From positions 1 to 57,244 of IMG/VR virus record IMGVR_UViG_3300044838_000003: DNA of 57,244 bases; one strand, 5' to 3'. The notes below the pieces were generated by a model. The model had not been told where the DNA came from. It saw only the letters and a list, made by a program, of their open reading frames with translations, and ran no database searches. Origin of the DNA: a virus. Made by a program: the position numbers and the translations under genes. This document shows, in pieces, positions 43,171-55,335 of the stretch; position 1 is the stretch's first letter, and each line of letters starts with the position of its first letter.

Positions 43171-44840
43171 TTCTTGGCGCCCTTACTGGGAGGCGGGGAT
43201 GCCGCCTTAGCGTCCGCGGCTGCTTGGGCTGCCTGGGCGCTTTGGTGAGCGCCTACTGCTGCCGTCGCGTCAGCCTTGTTGGCGGGATTGCCACCGGTCG
43301 GGGCTGAGCCTGGTGCGAACGCTCCCAGCAAGTTCTGGGCGTCCTGTCGGTCGAACTCCTGCATCATCAGCCGAGCCTCGACGGAGTAGCCCATGTCGAT
43401 ACGAGCCTGTTCCTTCGGGATCGGACCCATGCCGTTCGCGTAGAGCTTGGTCGCGCCGTCTGCCTTAGCGGCATACGTCGGGGTGCTCGGGTCGGCCCAC
43501 AGCATCTCTAGCCGGTACAAACCGGGGTCGATGCTCTGTAGCCCGCCGCCCATGACGGCGGTGGCGATACGCATAGCCTGCTCCCAAGCGCCTCCGAAGA
43601 GGACGTTCTTACGCTCACACAGCTTGACCAGACGGGCTTCGGACGCCTTGATTGCTTCGGCGCTGGCCGGGTTCTGGCTGCTGTAGCTGAGGTACTGAGG
43701 GGGCAAGCCTGTGTAGGCTGCCGTCTTCTTGTCGATGGCATCTAGTGCCGCGACGAAGTTCATCAGCTCGGCAGCCGAGAACTGGCCTGCCTTGCCGTTG
43801 GGGTCCTTGAACGCGAGGATGCGACCGAGGTACGCATCCCAGTTCTTCAGGCCGGTCTCGGGGTCCACGCCGACCTCCGCGGCGTTCACGCCGAAGAAGT
43901 ACCGCTGCGGTACCGCGAGGATCTCCGCGGCGCCCTGCATGTCCATCATAATCCGGGCAGCGGCGTCGGTAGCCGAGCGCAGCTCGGGGGTGATCTGGGA
44001 AGTGCCCAGTGTGTCGGAGAGCAGGGTGCGGTTGGTGATCGGGACCACCGGTACCACGCCGAGGTTGTGGGGGATCGTCTGTAGGATGGCGAACTGGTTT
44101 TCCTGCTTGATCCACACGGTGGTGGAGAGCGGGAGGTACAGTGTCGCCGAGACTACGTTCGATCCGGTGTCGTCGTAGATGACCCGGATAGCCTGACGCA
44201 CCGCGCCCGTGCGGGGCTCGGTGATAGCGAACAGGGTGTTGGCCGACTCGACCTTGATGATCGGTACGGTCGGGTCCCAAAACACGTCTACCGCGGGGTC
44301 AGCCTGCGAGATCGTGATGTAGGCCCGTCCGTGGACTAGGGCCTCGGTGTGGCCGAGTACGGAGTACACGTCGAGGTCGTTGTACTGCCACCAGTCCCAC
44401 AGGACGCTGGCCGGGTCGGTCGCTGCTCCGGTCGTGGACGGGGGGCTACCGGCCGCAGGCGGCGTGGTGCTACTCGCACCAGCAGCGGGGCTGGTGCTCA
44501 CCGTGGTCGCCGTCTGGGCGGCTGCCTGCATCGTCTTGACCCGGAAGCCCTGGGCCTCCTGGCGCTCAGCGATCGAGTCCACGTAGAGACGCGGGTATCC
44601 TACGTTCGCGAGCAGCTTCCGCATAGCGGGAGGTACCGCCAGCCCGATGGCATCCGGCCGCTTCTCGGCGTTGTAGTAGTCGAGGTTGTCCTTCAGCGAC
44701 GAGATGTTCTGCTCGAACAGGTTGATCATGTCGTCGCGGGTGGCCTCGATGTCCGTCGAGATGGAGCCGTCTTGCAGGTACCCGACCGGGGCCGGCTGGA
44801 TGGTGGCGGTCGAACCGCCGCCTCCACTTGGGGAAGTCAT
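43167..44840 (-). CDS. Portal protein, 557 aa
   Basis: Situated between large terminase and MuF genes. Hallmarks of SPP1-like portals: early helical region with Tyr (LKDNLDYYNAEKRPDAIGL), central beta/helix core, long LQTIPHNLGVVPVVPI and the Leu/Ala C-terminal crown rich in Ala. It forms the dodecameric DNA gate. Confidence 0.9.
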   Translation of the reverse strand: MTSPSGGGGSTATIQPAPVGYLQDGSISTDIEATRDDMINLFEQNISSLKDNLDYYNAEKRPDAIGLAVPPAMRKLLANVGYPRLYVDSIAERQEAQGFRVKTMQAAAQTATTVSTSPAAGASSTTPPAAGSPPSTTGAATDPASVLWDWWQYNDLDVYSVLGHTEALVHGRAYITISQADPAVDVFWDPTVPIIKVESANTLFAITEPRTGAVRQAIRVIYDDTGSNVVSATLYLPLSTTVWIKQENQFAILQTIPHNLGVVPVVPITNRTLLSDTLGTSQITPELRSATDAAARIMMDMQGAAEILAVPQRYFFGVNAAEVGVDPETGLKNWDAYLGRILAFKDPNGKAGQFSAAELMNFVAALDAIDKKTAAYTGLPPQYLSYSSQNPASAEAIKASEARLVKLCERKNVLFGGAWEQAMRIATAVMGGGLQSIDPGLYRLEMLWADPSTPTYAAKADGATKLYANGMGPIPKEQARIDMGYSVEARLMMQEFDRQDAQNLLGAFAPGSAPTGGNPANKADATAAVGAHQSAQAAQAAADAKAASPPPSKGAKK

Positions 44841-46525
44841 CGGATGATCACCACCCCGTCGCCTCGGTTGTTCTTGCTCATCAGGTAATCCTGTCTGCTA
44901 CCGAAGGCGAGCACGGCGCACACCGCCGCGTCGATCTTGCGGGAGGAGTCCTTCGTGGCCTTGCGTATGGCTACTGCATCGTAGGTTGTCATGTGCATCT
45001 TGGCGTTGGTGACGTGCTGCTTCAGCGTCGGGTTACCGTCGTGGGAGACTGTCCGCTCGATAACCGCGTCGTGGAACTTCTCGCAGTTCAGGGCGAACGT
45101 CTTCTGGTTGCCTCGCATGTCGAACGCGACGGGGTTGGCTGGGGACGCGTTCACCTTGAGGTCGAGCCTGAATAGCTCGCCCCACTGGTCAACGTATGCC
45201 TCGAACTCCTTCACGTCGGCGCGGAAGCCGACTACCTCGTACTTGTCCTTGGTGTTGCGAACCACCGCGTCAACCTGCTCGCGGTCGATCTCACCGGACG
45301 GGGTGTCCTTTGGATTCCACACCCCGAGGACGAACAGCATCCCGTCGCTCACGCGGCAGGCTACTAGAGCGGTCCAGTCGTTGGACTTGCTGCCGTCGAA
45401 GCCTAGGGTGATCTTCTCGCCCTTTTGCAGGACGGGCTGGTCTCCCTCGAATGCACATAGGTTCCACTGCTGTGGGCTGATCCACGAGTCCTCGGACGCG
45501 TTGATCTGGTTCAGGAACTTGCGTCGGGATTCGGTGATCGGGTTCCTGGTATCCAGTATGAGCTGGACGATGGTGTCGATGGGCAGCCAGTAGGAGTCGC
45601 CGCGGGCGATGACTACGCCCTCGCGGAGCTTCTTTACTCCCAGCTCGTGGCCTTCGGGGTCCTCCTTTAGGGAGGGAATCTCCGAGACCGGGGTGTCTGC
45701 TGGCGCTTCCAGCGCGTCGTACAGGATGCCGGTATCGACGGCTTTGCCGCCCATGACATCCTGGTAGTTGTCCCACGCTGCCTCCGCTACCGATTCGGTA
45801 CCGGGGATGTGGGCGTTGAAAATCGAAAGCGAACGGGCGTGGGGCGTCTTACCGAGGTTACCGGTGATGACAGCCGCCATCTCGTGCCCGTCGTTCGCCT
45901 CCCCTCCGGGTCCGCGACCCCACCACTGGATCTCGTTTTGGATCACGAAGGTCGGGCGGTTGCCCTCCATGCTCGCGGGGGAGCTGGTCACGGCTTCGAT
46001 GACCCCGCCATCGCTGGCGTAGATGACGAACTTGTTCACGTCGAGGTTGTAATCCCGCTTGAGTGCCTGCGAGATCATAATCGGGAACAAGCGGAACGTG
46101 TTCTTGGTTTGGTCCTGACTGACCGCCGCGATCTGAACCCACGCGGCGTGGCGGCGCTTACCAACGGGCGAACCGTCAGCGCCCCAGTGTGAGAAGGCTA
46201 CCGGGCCGACCAGCTCAGCGAGAGCTAGAGCGGCGGCGAACGGGTCCTTCCCCCAGCCCTTCAGGCGTCGGAGCATCCCCTCGCGGTACGTGTAGTTGCC
46301 ATCGGCGTCTACAGCGTACCACCAGAGGGTGAAGCGGGCCTGCTCTAGCGTGGGCATGAAGCCCTCGCCGGCGTGCTCGCCTCCGGGCGTCCGAACGTAT
46401 GTTGCCCACCAGTCTAGGATTCCCCACCCGAGTGAGAACTCGGGGAGGAACCAATGTCCGTCCAGGGTGCGAGCCCACGTTGGGCCTATTACGTGCGGGG
46501 GTGAGACTCGCAATTCCTGGGACAC
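44837..46525 (-). CDS. Large terminase subunit, 562 aa
   Basis: GTG start. Walker A-like LKGWGKDPFAAALALAE (a known deviant form in actinophages), Walker B-like TFVIQNEIQWWG region, and a nuclease domain with ITLGFDGSKSNDWTALVA (first catalytic Asp), VVGFRADVKEFE and DAAVCAVLAFG (last Asp). It packages and cuts the DNA. Overlaps the portal start by 4 bases. Confidence 0.9.
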   Translation of the reverse strand: MSQELRVSPPHVIGPTWARTLDGHWFLPEFSLGWGILDWWATYVRTPGGEHAGEGFMPTLEQARFTLWWYAVDADGNYTYREGMLRRLKGWGKDPFAAALALAELVGPVAFSHWGADGSPVGKRRHAAWVQIAAVSQDQTKNTFRLFPIMISQALKRDYNLDVNKFVIYASDGGVIEAVTSSPASMEGNRPTFVIQNEIQWWGRGPGGEANDGHEMAAVITGNLGKTPHARSLSIFNAHIPGTESVAEAAWDNYQDVMGGKAVDTGILYDALEAPADTPVSEIPSLKEDPEGHELGVKKLREGVVIARGDSYWLPIDTIVQLILDTRNPITESRRKFLNQINASEDSWISPQQWNLCAFEGDQPVLQKGEKITLGFDGSKSNDWTALVACRVSDGMLFVLGVWNPKDTPSGEIDREQVDAVVRNTKDKYEVVGFRADVKEFEAYVDQWGELFRLDLKVNASPANPVAFDMRGNQKTFALNCEKFHDAVIERTVSHDGNPTLKQHVTNAKMHMTTYDAVAIRKATKDSSRKIDAAVCAVLAFGSRQDYLMSKNNRGDGVVIIR

Positions 46526-50729: not shown

Positions 50730-52586
50730 CTATCTCCCTACTGAGGTCGTGCGTGGCTCGGATGGCACGCTGGTGAATCTGGACGTTCCGGGAACGGTGG
50801 TATTCCGCTGGCTCCCGAACACGCTGGTTTCCCGAACGCTGTCCAGCACCGAGGTGAACCGGGATGCGCTGCCTACCGTGGTCATCCGCTCCGGGGGAGG
50901 CGGGCTGACCTGCAGCAACAGACCCGCAAACAGCGCCGGCACGGTTCGTGCCGCGATGTGCGGCACGATGTTGGTCAGGCTGGCCGTGGCCGGTCGCGTG
51001 GTGCTCGCGATCAGCCCGGTGATAAGTTGCGAAGCCGTCAGGCTGGCCTGAGCTGGTCTGGCTGCAGCTGCGATAGTCCCTGTGAACGTCTGAGCGCCGC
51101 TGAGGGCCGCTGTCGCTGCTCGTAGCAGGACGGCGACTACCCCTTCGTTCGCGTAGTGCCCGGAGGCTGCCATCGTGGCCGCAGCCGCCTGAGCAGCTAT
51201 AGCGCCGGTCAGGAGCTGGTACCCGATGAACGACCCGACCGACTTCGGAAGAACCGCCGCGATCTGGCCTAGGTTAGCTCCCGAGCTGTTGATCAACGCG
51301 CCTACTAGCTGGGCGGTCGCCGCGATGGTGCCAGTCTGGGACTGGGCGCCGAGCGCGGAGAAGAGTGCCTTTTGCAGGCTGACCGTGATCGTACCGGTCT
51401 GGGACTGGCTTCCGATCAGGGAGGCCACCGTCTTGGCCAGCGTGGCGCCGACAGTACCGGTCTGGGACTGAGCGCCTGCTGCCGCTAGGATCGCCGTCTG
51501 CAAGGTGGCTGCTAGGGTGCCCTGGTAGGACTGGGTGCCCGCTGCTGCTGCGACGAGCGGCTGAAGCAGAGCCGCTATGGTTCCCGCTATAGTCTGGGTA
51601 CCGGCTAGATCCGCTGTCGCTTTTGTGACCGTGGCCGTCATCGTACCGTCCACCGACAGCAGTAGGCTTGACCCCGAGCCGTCGAAGACGGCCATGCGGG
51701 TTGTGGCCCCGACGGTGCCGGTGTATGTCTGCCCGCCGTTCAGTGCGGCTACCGCCTTCAGCAGGGATGCTGCCACGGTGCCGTTGAATCGCTGCGAGGC
51801 GTTGCCCGAGAACAGGCCCTTTTGTAGGGTCGCTGCTATCGTGCCGGTGTCGAGGTCGATGAATGTCAGTGCTGCGTATCCTATGGCACCAGCCCCGCCG
51901 ATACCAGCGGTATCGCCGCCGTTGCCGCCGCCTCCGCCAGCTCCGTACAGACCGCCAGCGCCGCCGTTGCGGGCTACTGCCGAACTCCACCCAGCCCCGC
52001 CGCCGCCTCCGCCGGGCTCTCCTGCTGATCCTGCTGTGCCGGCTGTGCCGTTGGCCGTTCCGGTGCTGCCTGCACCACCGCCAGCGAAGTTTGAGTCTCC
52101 ACCTTTGGCGCCGTTGCCGCCCGTGGTTACCGAGTTACGCCCGCAGCCGCCGCCGCCGCCTGGGCAGCCACCCGATGAGTTGGCTGCCGCGTTCGACGGT
52201 AGAGCGCCACCGTAGCCGCCGCTTGAGCCGTCTGTCCCGGCTATCGAGGTCAGACCGGTGAAACCGGAGACTGAAGCCGTCCCGCCCAATCCGCGGTTGG
52301 TCGTGACCGTGGTACCGCCCGCTGTGGCGGTGGCCCCCGCCGTGGCGGTTGCCGTGTTGGACCCTGTGACCAGCGTGGAGTTGGTAGCCGCTGCGCCAGC
52401 GGTGAGTGTGTACGTGCCGCTGAACTGGGCTATCGGGATGAACTGGTTGTAGAATCCAGCGGCTCCGCCGCCTCCGCCCCCACCTTGGCGGTTGCTGAAC
52501 GAGCCTGCGGACCCTGTGCTACCGTTACCTCCACCACCGATGAGGGTGACGAAGGCTCCCGCCTTGCCGGTCGGTGTGGTGGTCAT
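50730..52586 (-). CDS. Tail fibre with Gly-rich head and 21-residue repeats, 618 aa
   Basis: Residues 1-235 are a Gly-rich collagen-like region with Cys pair (CPGGGGGCG). Residues 246-543 are fourteen copies of a 21-residue unit (consensus T-G-T-I-A-A-T-L-Q-K-A...G-A-Q-S-Q). Residues 569-618 are five and a half copies of a 9-residue unit (T-[TS]-V-x-x-S-x-R-x). A host-recognition fibre is likely. Its place between the terminases is unusual for a fibre. Confidence 0.75.
   Translation of the reverse strand: MTTTPTGKAGAFVTLIGGGGNGSTGSAGSFSNRQGGGGGGGAAGFYNQFIPIAQFSGTYTLTAGAAATNSTLVTGSNTATATAGATATAGGTTVTTNRGLGGTASVSGFTGLTSIAGTDGSSGGYGGALPSNAAANSSGGCPGGGGGCGRNSVTTGGNGAKGGDSNFAGGGAGSTGTANGTAGTAGSAGEPGGGGGGAGWSSAVARNGGAGGLYGAGGGGGNGGDTAGIGGAGAIGYAALTFIDLDTGTIAATLQKGLFSGNASQRFNGTVAASLLKAVAALNGGQTYTGTVGATTRMAVFDGSGSSLLLSVDGTMTATVTKATADLAGTQTIAGTIAALLQPLVAAAAGTQSYQGTLAATLQTAILAAAGAQSQTGTVGATLAKTVASLIGSQSQTGTITVSLQKALFSALGAQSQTGTIAATAQLVGALINSSGANLGQIAAVLPKSVGSFIGYQLLTGAIAAQAAAATMAASGHYANEGVVAVLLRAATAALSGAQTFTGTIAAAARPAQASLTASQLITGLIASTTRPATASLTNIVPHIAARTVPALFAGLLLQVSPPPPERMTTVGSASRFTSVLDSVRETSVFGSQRNTTVPGTSRFTSVPSEPRTTSVGR
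50733..50882 (-). repeat. 9-residue coding repeat at fibre C-terminus
   Basis: Codes TTVGSASRF, TSVLDSVRE, TSVFGSQRN, TTVPGTSRF, TSVPSEPRT, TSVGR. Strict period of 27 bases. Confidence 0.8.
50958..51848 (-). repeat. 21-residue coding repeat in fibre gene
   Basis: Units begin at residues 247, 268, 289, 313, 334, 355, 376, 397, 418, 439, 460, 481, 502 and 523: constant 63-base spacing apart from one unit longer by 3 residues. Sequence drift between units shows age. Confidence 0.85.
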
Positions 52587-52677: not shown

Positions 52678-53163
52678 CTAAGCCTGCTGTTGAGCCCGCA
52701 GGCGGTCTTCGTAGACCTTGGAGATTGGGATGACCTTGGCTTCTTCCCCGACTTCTCCGGTGCTACGATCGACTTCTATCCGCAGTCGGCGTCGTTCTCC
52801 CTCTGTTACAGCGATCGAGGTTAGCATCTGCCAAACTGCGGCGACCATCGTCGGGGATACCTGGCCGACCTTCATCTTCCCATCTTTGTCCTCGTACGGC
52901 CGAAGCTGCTTATCGAGGAGGTGGAGAGCGGTGAGCGCGGTCATCCAGTCCGAGGGCTCGTAATACTTGGCTTGGCCGGATTGTCCGAGGGACTCCCAGA
53001 ACGCTTTGGTGATGTTCTGGGTCAGCATGTTCGGGAATTGTCGGAGGCTGGGCTGTTTTACTTCGCCCTCCATCGCGACCTTATCGACGGACTCGATTTT
53101 GTCTTTCGCGACGTGACCGGCTAGTTGGTCTACACGCTTCGGAATGGGTCCGGTGAGGTTCAT
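52678..53163 (-). CDS. Small terminase subunit, 162 aa
   Basis: Start ATG 53163 with AGGAGT. Begins NLTGPIPKR; middle GQAKYYEPSDWMTALTALHL and end VTEGERRRLRIEVDR match the actinophage small terminase pattern I recall. It recognises the packaging site, probably the cos region upstream. Far from the large terminase gene, as fits this phage type. Confidence 0.8.
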   Translation of the reverse strand: MNLTGPIPKRVDQLAGHVAKDKIESVDKVAMEGEVKQPSLRQFPNMLTQNITKAFWESLGQSGQAKYYEPSDWMTALTALHLLDKQLRPYEDKDGKMKVGQVSPTMVAAVWQMLTSIAVTEGERRRLRIEVDRSTGEVGEEAKVIPISKVYEDRLRAQQQA

Positions 53164-53179
53164 AATGGGACTCCTGGTC

Positions 53180-53470
53180 CTACATTCGGCCTGGGTGTCT
53201 TTCCACTGGACGGAGAGCCCGTTGCCGTTTCTGGGTGCGGGCATTTACGCCCTGGGCCGACGAACGATCGTCGTGGCACGGCTTGCAGGCCGCGCGTAGC
53301 TTGGTGTGGTCGTCTTTATCGCCGTAGTGGTCGATCTGGGTCGCCCGATGGATACACCGGGGTCCGCGGATCTGACACAACCCGCGAGCTGCCTTCATCG
53401 TAGGCTTTCGGTAGGCCGACTCCCAGTCGGCCGGCAGCTCGCTGTGACGACGGCTATCGGCCTCCCACAC
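53180..53470 (-). CDS. HNH endonuclease, 96 aa
   Basis: GTG at 53470 with GGGAGG, better than the ATG at 53521. SRRHSELPADW, then CQIRGPRC, QIDHY (HNH His) and LRAACKPCHDD (second zinc pair with final His). HNH proteins beside terminases help cut cos DNA in other siphoviruses. It is the first late gene from the divergent region. Confidence 0.85.
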   Translation of the reverse strand: MWEADSRRHSELPADWESAYRKPTMKAARGLCQIRGPRCIHRATQIDHYGDKDDHTKLRAACKPCHDDRSSAQGVNARTQKRQRALRPVERHPGRM

Positions 53471-53507
53471 AGCAGACCTCCCTAGGCGGCGCCTCGCGCC
53501 GCATGGA

Positions 53508-53624
53508 GCGATGCGCAGCATCGCGACCTTCGCTTCGCTCCGGTCTTTTATTGCCCATCCAATAGAACCTAACGACCGACCCGCGAAAAGCGGGTCGCGA
53601 CGGGAGGAGGTCCGAAGGACCTCC
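53508..53624. other. Hairpin cluster upstream of the HNH gene
   Basis: Three perfect inverted repeats: GCGATGC/GCATCGC loop GCA (53508-53524), GACCCGC/GCGGGTC loop GAAAA (53578-53596), GGAGGTCC/GGACCTCC loop GAA (53606-53624). No gene overlaps. Could be leader structure of late mRNA or part of cos/packaging recognition. Confidence 0.6.
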
Positions 53625-53842
53625 GACCTTTGGGGTCTCCGGTCCTTCGGAGGGGTTCACCAGAACCCCGACTGGTAGGTCGTTCGGTCGCTTGTCGCTC
53701 CCTCACTCCCTCAATGGTTAAGTACGCGTTAATAGATTTTCCAGAGCGGTGCTCTCATCTCACTATGTGGGAAGTTGCAGGTCATACCCCCCGCCTGGGC
53801 TGGGTTCAGTAGACCGAACCCAGGGGGCCAGGGTCAGGCGCA
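53625..53842. other. Gene-free stretch beside cos
   Basis: No convincing gene. It contains a perfect 8-bp hairpin CTGGGTTC/GAACCCAG (53800-53823), a T/A-rich stretch near 53715-53745 and the first TACCCC copy (53785). Confidence 0.6.
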
Positions 53843-53852
53843 TAACCGACCG
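53843..53852. other. Candidate cos site
   Basis: TAACCGACCG; the complement CGGTCGGTTA is, from memory, the cohesive-end sequence of some cluster A mycobacteriophages. It stands about 370 bases upstream of the HNH/small terminase genes, the expected place. Not proven here. Confidence 0.45.
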
Positions 53853-53876
53853 GTCAGCCCGCAAGCGGGTAAGGGA

Positions 53877-54326
53877 TACCCCCCGTGGGGTACTGCCACC
53901 CCCATACCCCCTCCGACCTGCGCTTATGCTCTGCCGGCTACTCCGCCTGGACACTGCCCACCCTGCCCCACCAGGGCATACCCCACCGAAGGGGTATGCA
54001 CCAGCAAACAACCCTGCATACCCCCTGCCCACCATGCCTACCCCTGCCACCAGTGCATACCCTGCCCATACCCCCTGCTACCAGCACCGATACCCCTGCC
54101 ACTACCCCCTTGCCCTGCCCTGCCACTAGCCGAGGGCGGCTACCCCCGACCTAGCACTACCCCCTATGCAAGGGGTATCTGTAACCGAGGGGTAAGCGAA
54201 AAATTCCTACCTGGGAATATACCCCGATCTATGTGTAACCATGCTGGTCCAGGCCCCGTCGTTGGGAACACCGAGTTATCTGTAACCGACCATTACAAAA
54301 CCACTTCCCACCAGCGTCTTTACCCC
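53877..54326. repeat. TACCCC / GGGGTA repeat cluster (iteron-like)
   Basis: TACCCC starts at 53785, 53877, 53905, 53979, 54019, 54039, 54069, 54091, 54103, 54141, 54158, 54220 and 54321; GGGGTA starts at 53887, 53991, 54172 and 54189. Four of the forward/reverse neighbours make hairpins, the best being GCATACCCC-6nt-GGGGTATGC (53976-53999). Possible origin or packaging/regulator binding region. Its open frames are Pro-rich and not gene-like. Confidence 0.75.
54176..54289 (+). repeat. TAT-[CG]-TGTAACC motif, three copies
   Basis: TATCTGTAACCGA at 54176-54188 and 54277-54289, and TATGTGTAACCAT at 54230-54242, all in one orientation, starts 54 and 47 bases apart. Candidate protein-binding sites in the divergent region. 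Confidence 0.55.
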
Positions 54327-54619
54327 AATGTATCCGATAAGCTTGCTTAGCTGGCCATGGGGGACTACCTTGGTGATTGTTCGACCAGCACGGCACAACT
54401 TCACAGAGGCAATCAAGACATTCCCTGAGGGCATGTTCCGAAGTGCGGCCGAACCTAGCGCAACACAATGGCTAGGCAGAGTAGGCAAGGGCGAGGTTCG
54501 ACCTCGATAGCGCGGAACGGCAGATGGTACCCGGATGGGAGCGTCGGATCAGGTGAGACCTTCGCAACGCGGGTCTTAATGGGCCGCTACGCACATAGCT
54601 ACCAGCCACAATCCCAAGT
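54327..54619. other. Gene-free stretch of the divergent region
   Basis: Short open frames on both strands have no ribosome sites or protein-like composition. It has a GCGAGGTTCGACCTCG-like dyad near 54488 reminiscent of a T-arm. Otherwise nothing clear. Confidence 0.4.
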
Positions 54620-54648
54620 TTGACAAAACGTGAAACGGCTGGTAGTGT
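54620..54648 (+). promoter_or_regulatory. Rightward promoter, sigma70-type
   Basis: TTGACA at 54620-54625, 17-nt spacer, TAGTGT at 54643-54648. No start codon follows closely, so it may make a leader or non-coding RNA over 54.65-55.03 kb. Confidence 0.6.
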
Positions 54649-54920: not shown

Positions 54921-54993
54921 CGGTGCAAAGGTTGGCGTGGCTTAACCACGTCATTCGGAAGTATTCGCGACAGGTTCGATTCCTGCGGCACCT
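54921..54993 (+). tRNA. tRNA-like sequence, possible degenerate tRNA-Pro (CGG)
   Basis: GGTGC/GCACC acceptor part (5 of 7 pairs), D-arm GGTT/AACC with GG in the loop, T-arm CAGG-TTCGATT-CCTG and a loop TTCGGAA (anticodon CGG). The anticodon stem does not pair, so it may be a decayed tRNA or a tRNA mimic. Confidence 0.4.
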
Positions 54994-55000
54994 CTCCCGC

Positions 55001-55029
55001 TTGACAAGATGTCAGGCACTAGGTAAGGT
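55001..55029 (+). promoter_or_regulatory. Leaderless promoter with operator-like dyad
   Basis: TTGACA at 55001-55006, 17-nt spacer, TAAGGT at 55024-55029, ATG 6 nt later at 55036. The -35 is inside the inverted repeat TGACA-AGA-TGTCA (55002-55014), a likely repressor site. Confidence 0.65.
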
Positions 55030-55248: not shown

Positions 55249-55267
55249 TACCTCGATAGGTACTAGC

Positions 55268-55335
55268 GGATGCTGGCTAGGCGAGCGACTGTAAGAGCGC
55301 ATACCCTAGAGGGTTCGACTCCCTCATCCGCACGA
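55268..55335 (+). tRNA. tRNA-like sequence with GTA loop, possible tRNA-Tyr
   Basis: Perfect ends GCGGATG/CATCCGC and T-arm GAGGG-TTCGACT-CCCTC (sharing one base), a short D-like arm GCT/AGC, and ACTGTAAGA in the anticodon place. The anticodon stem is not formed and total length is only about 67 nt, so identity is uncertain. Confidence 0.45.

Follow-up and report, generated by a model that had tools for sequence, protein, structure and literature searches.

The TACCCC/GGGGTA cluster in this phage genome is most likely part of a DNA packaging signal, as judged from the position of the repeat at the cos end and from its recurrence in many mycobacteriophages, without annotation in the records checked. 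Specifically, we lean toward the view that the repeats flank the packaging site cos on its right-end side in an L5-like phage and comprise a conserved core followed by a variable array. Cluster A phages such as L5, D29, and Bxb1 form a heavily used mycobacteriophage group that has supplied genetic and therapeutic tools, and their packaging site beyond the overhang is seemingly undescribed in the open literature searched. Our analysis marked a core of 50 bp at the right end and a block of 30 bp at the left end, identified a neighboring small terminase where PHROGs lists a tail protein, and showed that the gap before Pleft holds lineage-specific repeats. The outcome is a set of defined, testable pieces of the packaging signal.

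The cos site and its right-end core

The window, which is the whole of virus record IMGVR_UViG_3300044838_000003 (57,244 bases), belongs to an L5-like (mycobacteriophage cluster A-like) actinobacterial phage, and the record continues across cos. Its terminase gene showed ~75% DNA identity to the terminase genes of mycobacteriophages over 1.5 kb, and its lysin gene was adjoined by tRNA-Asn and tRNA-Trp, an arrangement also known from L5. One gene block runs leftward and one runs rightward from the divergent region, as expected from the L5 layout once the cohesive ends of the linear genome have been joined. The two ends of the window (positions 1 and 57244) fell inside the early gene block, and a terminal repeat of at least 15 bases was absent. 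Since the contig continued through cos and had no terminal repeat, the sequenced DNA was probably cos-joined (circular or concatemeric) and not virion ends only.

The location of cos in the window is, on sequence grounds, close to certain. The nicking region TAACCGACCGGTCAG agreed with complete cluster A genomes over the first 13 to 15 bases of their right ends, and in complete relatives the right-end sequence, taken in the inward direction, opened with T(T/A)ACC..CCGGTC. Across the cut from TAACCGACCGGTCAG, the window had TGCG, and the left ends of relatives likewise started with TGCG. A 10-base overhang was predicted at 53843-53852 (CGGTCGGTTA on the - strand); in this record, a contig assembled through cos, the overhang length was set by analogy with the cluster A phage Eagle, which has 10-base 3' ends (PMC3029335).

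A cos-proximal core of 50 bp with a G-run/C-run palindrome was nearly universal among the cluster A ends that were compared. The palindrome and a TACCCC...GGGGTA hairpin were located at about positions 28 to 50 from the right end; the corresponding sequence in the window, GGGATACCCCCCGTGGGGTA, was imperfect but aligned with those of the relatives. In 32 distinct right ends, information content was high at positions 1 to 50 and was 0.3 to 0.5 bit past position ~90. When subclusters were compared via BLAST, the last 49 to 60 bp were the sole alignable stretch.

The order of cos, repeat interval, and Pleft-type promoter was found in ~30 complete relatives, and in most complete relatives the equivalent Pleft-type promoter was the first one after cos, 265 to 805 bp in. 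The array in the window started 35 bases inside the right end and stopped short of the first Pleft-type match at 54620. Because it filled the interval from cos to the first Pleft-type promoter, we placed the array at the right-hand physical terminus of the mature genome. In L5, Pleft transcription starts at 51,672, and the abundant RNA made from this promoter heads away from this interval; in cluster A phages this noncoding RNA lies downstream of Pleft, outside the cos-Pleft interval (PMC5712189). By analogy, the array would lie outside that RNA. The features of the region and of the packaging genes are listed in Table 1.

Table 1. Coordinates of the cos region, the repeats, and the packaging genes in the window
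Feature	Position	Strand	Support or detail
Terminase large subunit gene	44837-46525	-	phrog_9, E 5.5e-98
Terminase small subunit gene	52678-53244	-	Pfam PF25673 Terminase_7, E 1.2e-29
HNH endonuclease gene, nearest to cos on the left side	53180-53521	-	phrog_333, E 8.9e-24
Left physical end	53785-53842	-	One GGGGTA, at left-end position 53
cos nicking region TAACCGACCGGTCAG	53843-53857	+	
Conserved right-end cos core	53843-53896	+	Ends with TACCCC-CCGT-GGGGTA
Distal TACCCC/GGGGTA array	53877-54326	+	12 + 4 copies; CCCTGC repeats interspersed
GACCTGCGCTTATGC	53915-53929	+	Single copy of motif GACCTGCGACGATGC/GACCTGGGCATATGC
Best hairpin, GCATACCCC-ACCGAA-GGGGTATGC	53976-53999	+	Perfect 9-bp stem, 6-nt loop; z -5.1 versus shuffles
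TATCTGTAACCGA, copy 1	54176-54188	+	
TATCTGTAACCGA, copy 2	54277-54289		
Candidate Pleft-type early promoter	54620-54648	+	TTGACA-17-TAGTGT
Second candidate Pleft-type early promoter	55001-55029	+	

The repeat array in the window and in relatives

Between 53785 and 54326, TACCCC occurred 13 times on the + strand and GGGGTA occurred 4 times (TACCCC on the - strand), exactly the counts given in the initial annotation. The remaining 56,684 bp of the window contained 9 TACCCC and 11 GGGGTA, which were scattered. Because the array stretch is C-rich, local, dinucleotide-preserving shuffles (n = 5,000) served as the control. Positions 53843-54342 held 12 TACCCC and 4 GGGGTA, compared to shuffle means of 2.1 and 0.18 and shuffle maxima of 8 and 3, and the observed count was reached by none of the 5,000 shuffles. 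TACCCC was also among the three 6-mers with the strongest local clustering in the window. The concern that the hexamer might be equally dense elsewhere was answered by the genome-wide count, which gave a far lower density outside the cluster.

The array showed a strong + strand skew, with C over G, and the G+C content of the region was up to 69%. Copy spacing was irregular (12 to 101 bp). The strand bias that was first described is real in the window (13:4), but it is not a general property, since the copies in many relatives are palindromic and balanced between the strands. The initial annotation had also described several copies as perfect hairpins. Three short-loop TACCCC...GGGGTA pairs were indeed present, at 53877, 53979, and 54158, but only the hairpin at 53976-53999 folded clearly better than shuffles; folding of the whole array region was borderline (z -1.9). 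We rejected a G-quadruplex since neither strand of 53843-54620 contained four runs of three or more G separated by short loops. A direct DNA similarity search of the array region against phages gave no match, and an Rfam search of the region gave only chance-level matches. The motif GACCTGCGACGATGC/GACCTGGGCATATGC occurred near cos in L5-type phages and some other relatives, and in a relative of L264, a TACCTGTAACCG repeat occupied the interval matching the TATCTGTAACCGA copies.

The element recurred at the same end in relatives, which ran against the possibility that it might lack conservation. The right-end intervals fell into 14 mutually unalignable groups, and TACCCC/GGGGTA was the top-ranked 6-mer over all 14. 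It was enriched beyond local dinucleotide composition in 5 of the 14 (the window, Microwolfvirus, Sheen/Rockstar, L256, and L089), and the remaining groups, L5-type included, had different repeats. When TACCCC was counted genome-wide in six relatives, five of them complete genomes, it accumulated at the right end, and roughly 40 to 60% of the copies in the five complete genomes were in the last 300 to 400 bp. The complete genomes used throughout the analysis came mostly from phages isolated on a single host, M. smegmatis, and are not independent. PurpleHaze had 12 of its 27 TACCCC in the last 375 bp, the L027 genome had 18 of 29 in the last 282 bp, and the Microwolfvirus array contained 8 to 11 TACCCC (ten ends). 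In the Microwolfvirus-type records listed, there was no annotation under the repeat region. The initial statement that no actinophage repeat of this form has been described holds for the open literature searched, but the repeat itself is present in dozens of deposited mycobacteriophage genomes.

Cluster A right ends, such as those of L5, D29, PurpleHaze, Rockstar, and Sheen, shared the same cos, core, and order, and several lineages carried TACCCC/GGGGTA arrays. In the case of the L5-type phages, the core was kept and the array was absent, with GACCTGCG/CGATGC-type repeats in place of TACCCC, indicating that the array is not universally required. The right ends of three more distant relatives (L094, L095, and L096) had simple CCCTGCC/GGCAGG-type tandem repeats. 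In prophage relatives in Actinocrispum, Saccharopolyspora, Amycolatopsis, and Nocardioides, an array upstream of the HNH gene was absent, which counts against the packaging reading. TACCCC arrays were also detected in unrelated viral contigs: at least two of nine such clusters (L317 and L304) were in repetitive coding sequence and the others looked unrelated, so presence of the hexamer by itself is not diagnostic.

The left end, the packaging genes, and a proposed role for the array

The motif continued at the other physical end. In the first 300 bp of 39 left ends, TACCCC/GGGGTA occurred 27 times, compared to 3.5 expected from the rest of the same loci, which is an enrichment of ~8-fold. Nine otherwise divergent phages (L012, L020, L029, L032, L049, L055, L070, L075, and L080) shared a TACCCC at left-end position 122/123. 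The relatives also had a conserved block at positions 13 to 27 from the left end. This block (GTACGGGTTT; ATCNTGTACGGGTTT) was missing from the window alone, where GGGTT at positions 22 to 26 was the only remnant, and the absence of ATCNTGTACGGGTTT indicated a divergent cos of the cluster A type.

The small terminase (TerS) gene overlaps the HNH gene, and this pair was found near the left end, across cos from the array, in most relatives. PHROGs labels the family of the gene at 52678-53244 (-), phrog_226, as "minor tail protein"; this label is probably wrong, given the Pfam match to PF25673 and the position of the gene beside the HNH gene and cos. The window TerS was the most diverged of the set, with a median identity of 40% versus 49 to 65%, and the divergence of the large subunit (TerL) and the portal was only slightly above that of the others. 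Loss of the left block together with the most diverged TerS fits a TerS that reads the left block, in what is a single case. Searches of viral contigs with the TerS and HNH proteins yielded no close relatives. The predicted TerS structure was of moderate quality (pLDDT 66), and its best structural match, which was not significant, was HK97 TerS.

HK97 likewise has a cos, an HNH protein, and a small terminase. In HK97, TerS binds 15 to 29 bp from the cut (PMC11331095), a spacing similar to that of the relatives' left block; HK97 is not known to have a repeat array. A lambda-type cos (cosQ-cosN-cosB) also has a cohesive-end cut with short recognition elements on either side, among them repeated or inverted sites that lie within ~200 bp and vary in sequence between lineages, as seen here (PMC4669245). 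Compared to lambda, the repeats here extend over ~480 bp, with 6-bp units and up to ~18 copies, and cluster A ends differ in being 3' overhangs (PMC3029335). The TerS repeats of lambda cosB are on the side of cos that terminase still holds when packaging begins. Unlike these, most of the repeats here lie across cos from the terminase genes, which counts against the packaging reading. A lambda-type cosB was rejected because the terminase side of the window cos has a single GGGGTA and the array is opposite. Since the core and array are opposite the probable TerS site, we placed them on the side of lambda cosQ, which is needed for termination of packaging (PMC4669245).

Among the roles first suggested for the cluster (origin of replication, packaging control region, or master operator), packaging fits, because the cluster abuts cos, has a cos-proximal copy inside the 50-bp block conserved in nearly all cluster A ends compared, and has TerS and HNH genes across cos; the other two had no positive support. 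In the scheme that we propose, the packaging machinery (TerL, the HNH protein, and TerS) would cut concatemeric DNA at cos. The left block of the relatives, on the terminase gene side, is rightly placed for a TerS loading site, as in HK97, and packaging would start from the left end. A motor that started there would reach the TACCCC core and array last, just before the terminal cut, and the core and array might be recognized or might act as a brake on the motor, which would allow accurate cleavage of cos. The location of cos, the conservation of the core, the recurrence of TACCCC, the neighboring HNH and TerS genes, and the position before the early promoters were observed directly; we inferred the polarity of packaging, the binding protein, and the role of the distal copies.

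It is doubtful that the array is a packaging-termination signal that is read by the motor or stalls it before cos, with lineages having swapped repeat alphabets to match their own packaging proteins. Array type did track the terminase tree (3 changes versus 11 in shuffled data). A specific link to terminase was rejected, however, because the portal and capsid trees did equally well; the fit of array type to TerS, TerL, and HNH did not exceed its fit to portal or capsid, which points to genome kinship only and not to a link with packaging proteins.

Other explanations for the array

The packaging reading was weighed against the idea that only the 50-bp core is functional and that the distal copies form a low-complexity spacer under weak or no constraint, produced by slippage of C-rich repeats in a protected gap between cos and the early promoters. 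We regard this idea as unlikely, although several results agree with it. Copy number and position differed by small indels in close relatives, and the gap in other lineages held unrelated simple repeats, such as CCCTGCC, CGATGC, and CACGCA. Moreover, the hexamers of the Microwolfvirus array were not significantly better conserved than their surroundings (ten ends, circular-shift p 0.28), which counts against a packaging role; slippage may therefore explain part of the array. In contrast, neutral spacer DNA does not readily explain why five unalignable groups are enriched in the same hexamer beyond what local dinucleotide composition predicts, or why it is also enriched near left ends.

The array is directly upstream of the Pleft-type promoters and, in the circular genome, sits between both transcription units. 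It could thus be a cis-regulatory region for divergent early (Pleft) and late promoters, with TACCCC as the operator of an early-to-late switch, but we consider this improbable. The known control sites, a TTGACA-overlapping operator and stoperators, have a different motif (PMC5712189), the motif in the window runs on across cos to the other physical end, and the best conserved copy is tied to the position of cos and not to that of the promoter. Iteron origins (e.g., P1 RepA) and cluster A stoperators also consist of multiple short-motif copies in noncoding DNA; the window motif is unrelated to the stoperator consensus of cluster A phages. A stoperator or operator array was rejected because the motif is unlike the GGTGGNTGTCAAG-type repressor site and the promoter-type sites with TTGACA lie downstream; the array does not overlap the Pleft-type promoters or the repressor sites that belong to them.

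A lytic origin of replication with TACCCC as iterons is very improbable: short direct repeats at a divergent junction that is free of genes and where the skew changes would suit one, but the spacing is irregular and the G+C content is high, a marked AT-rich stretch and a nearby or linked initiator gene were not found, DnaA-box-like sites were at chance level with none inside the array, and the described prophage origins of cluster A relatives are near parA or repA (PMC7157519).

Downstream of the array, we observed two tRNA-like stretches on the + strand, at 54922-54992 and about 55265-55330, with the T-arm-like sequences GGTTCGATTCC and GGTTCGACTCC, respectively. Both scored under the ARAGORN and Rfam thresholds, and both fall in the region that gives rise to the abundant Pleft noncoding RNA in L5.
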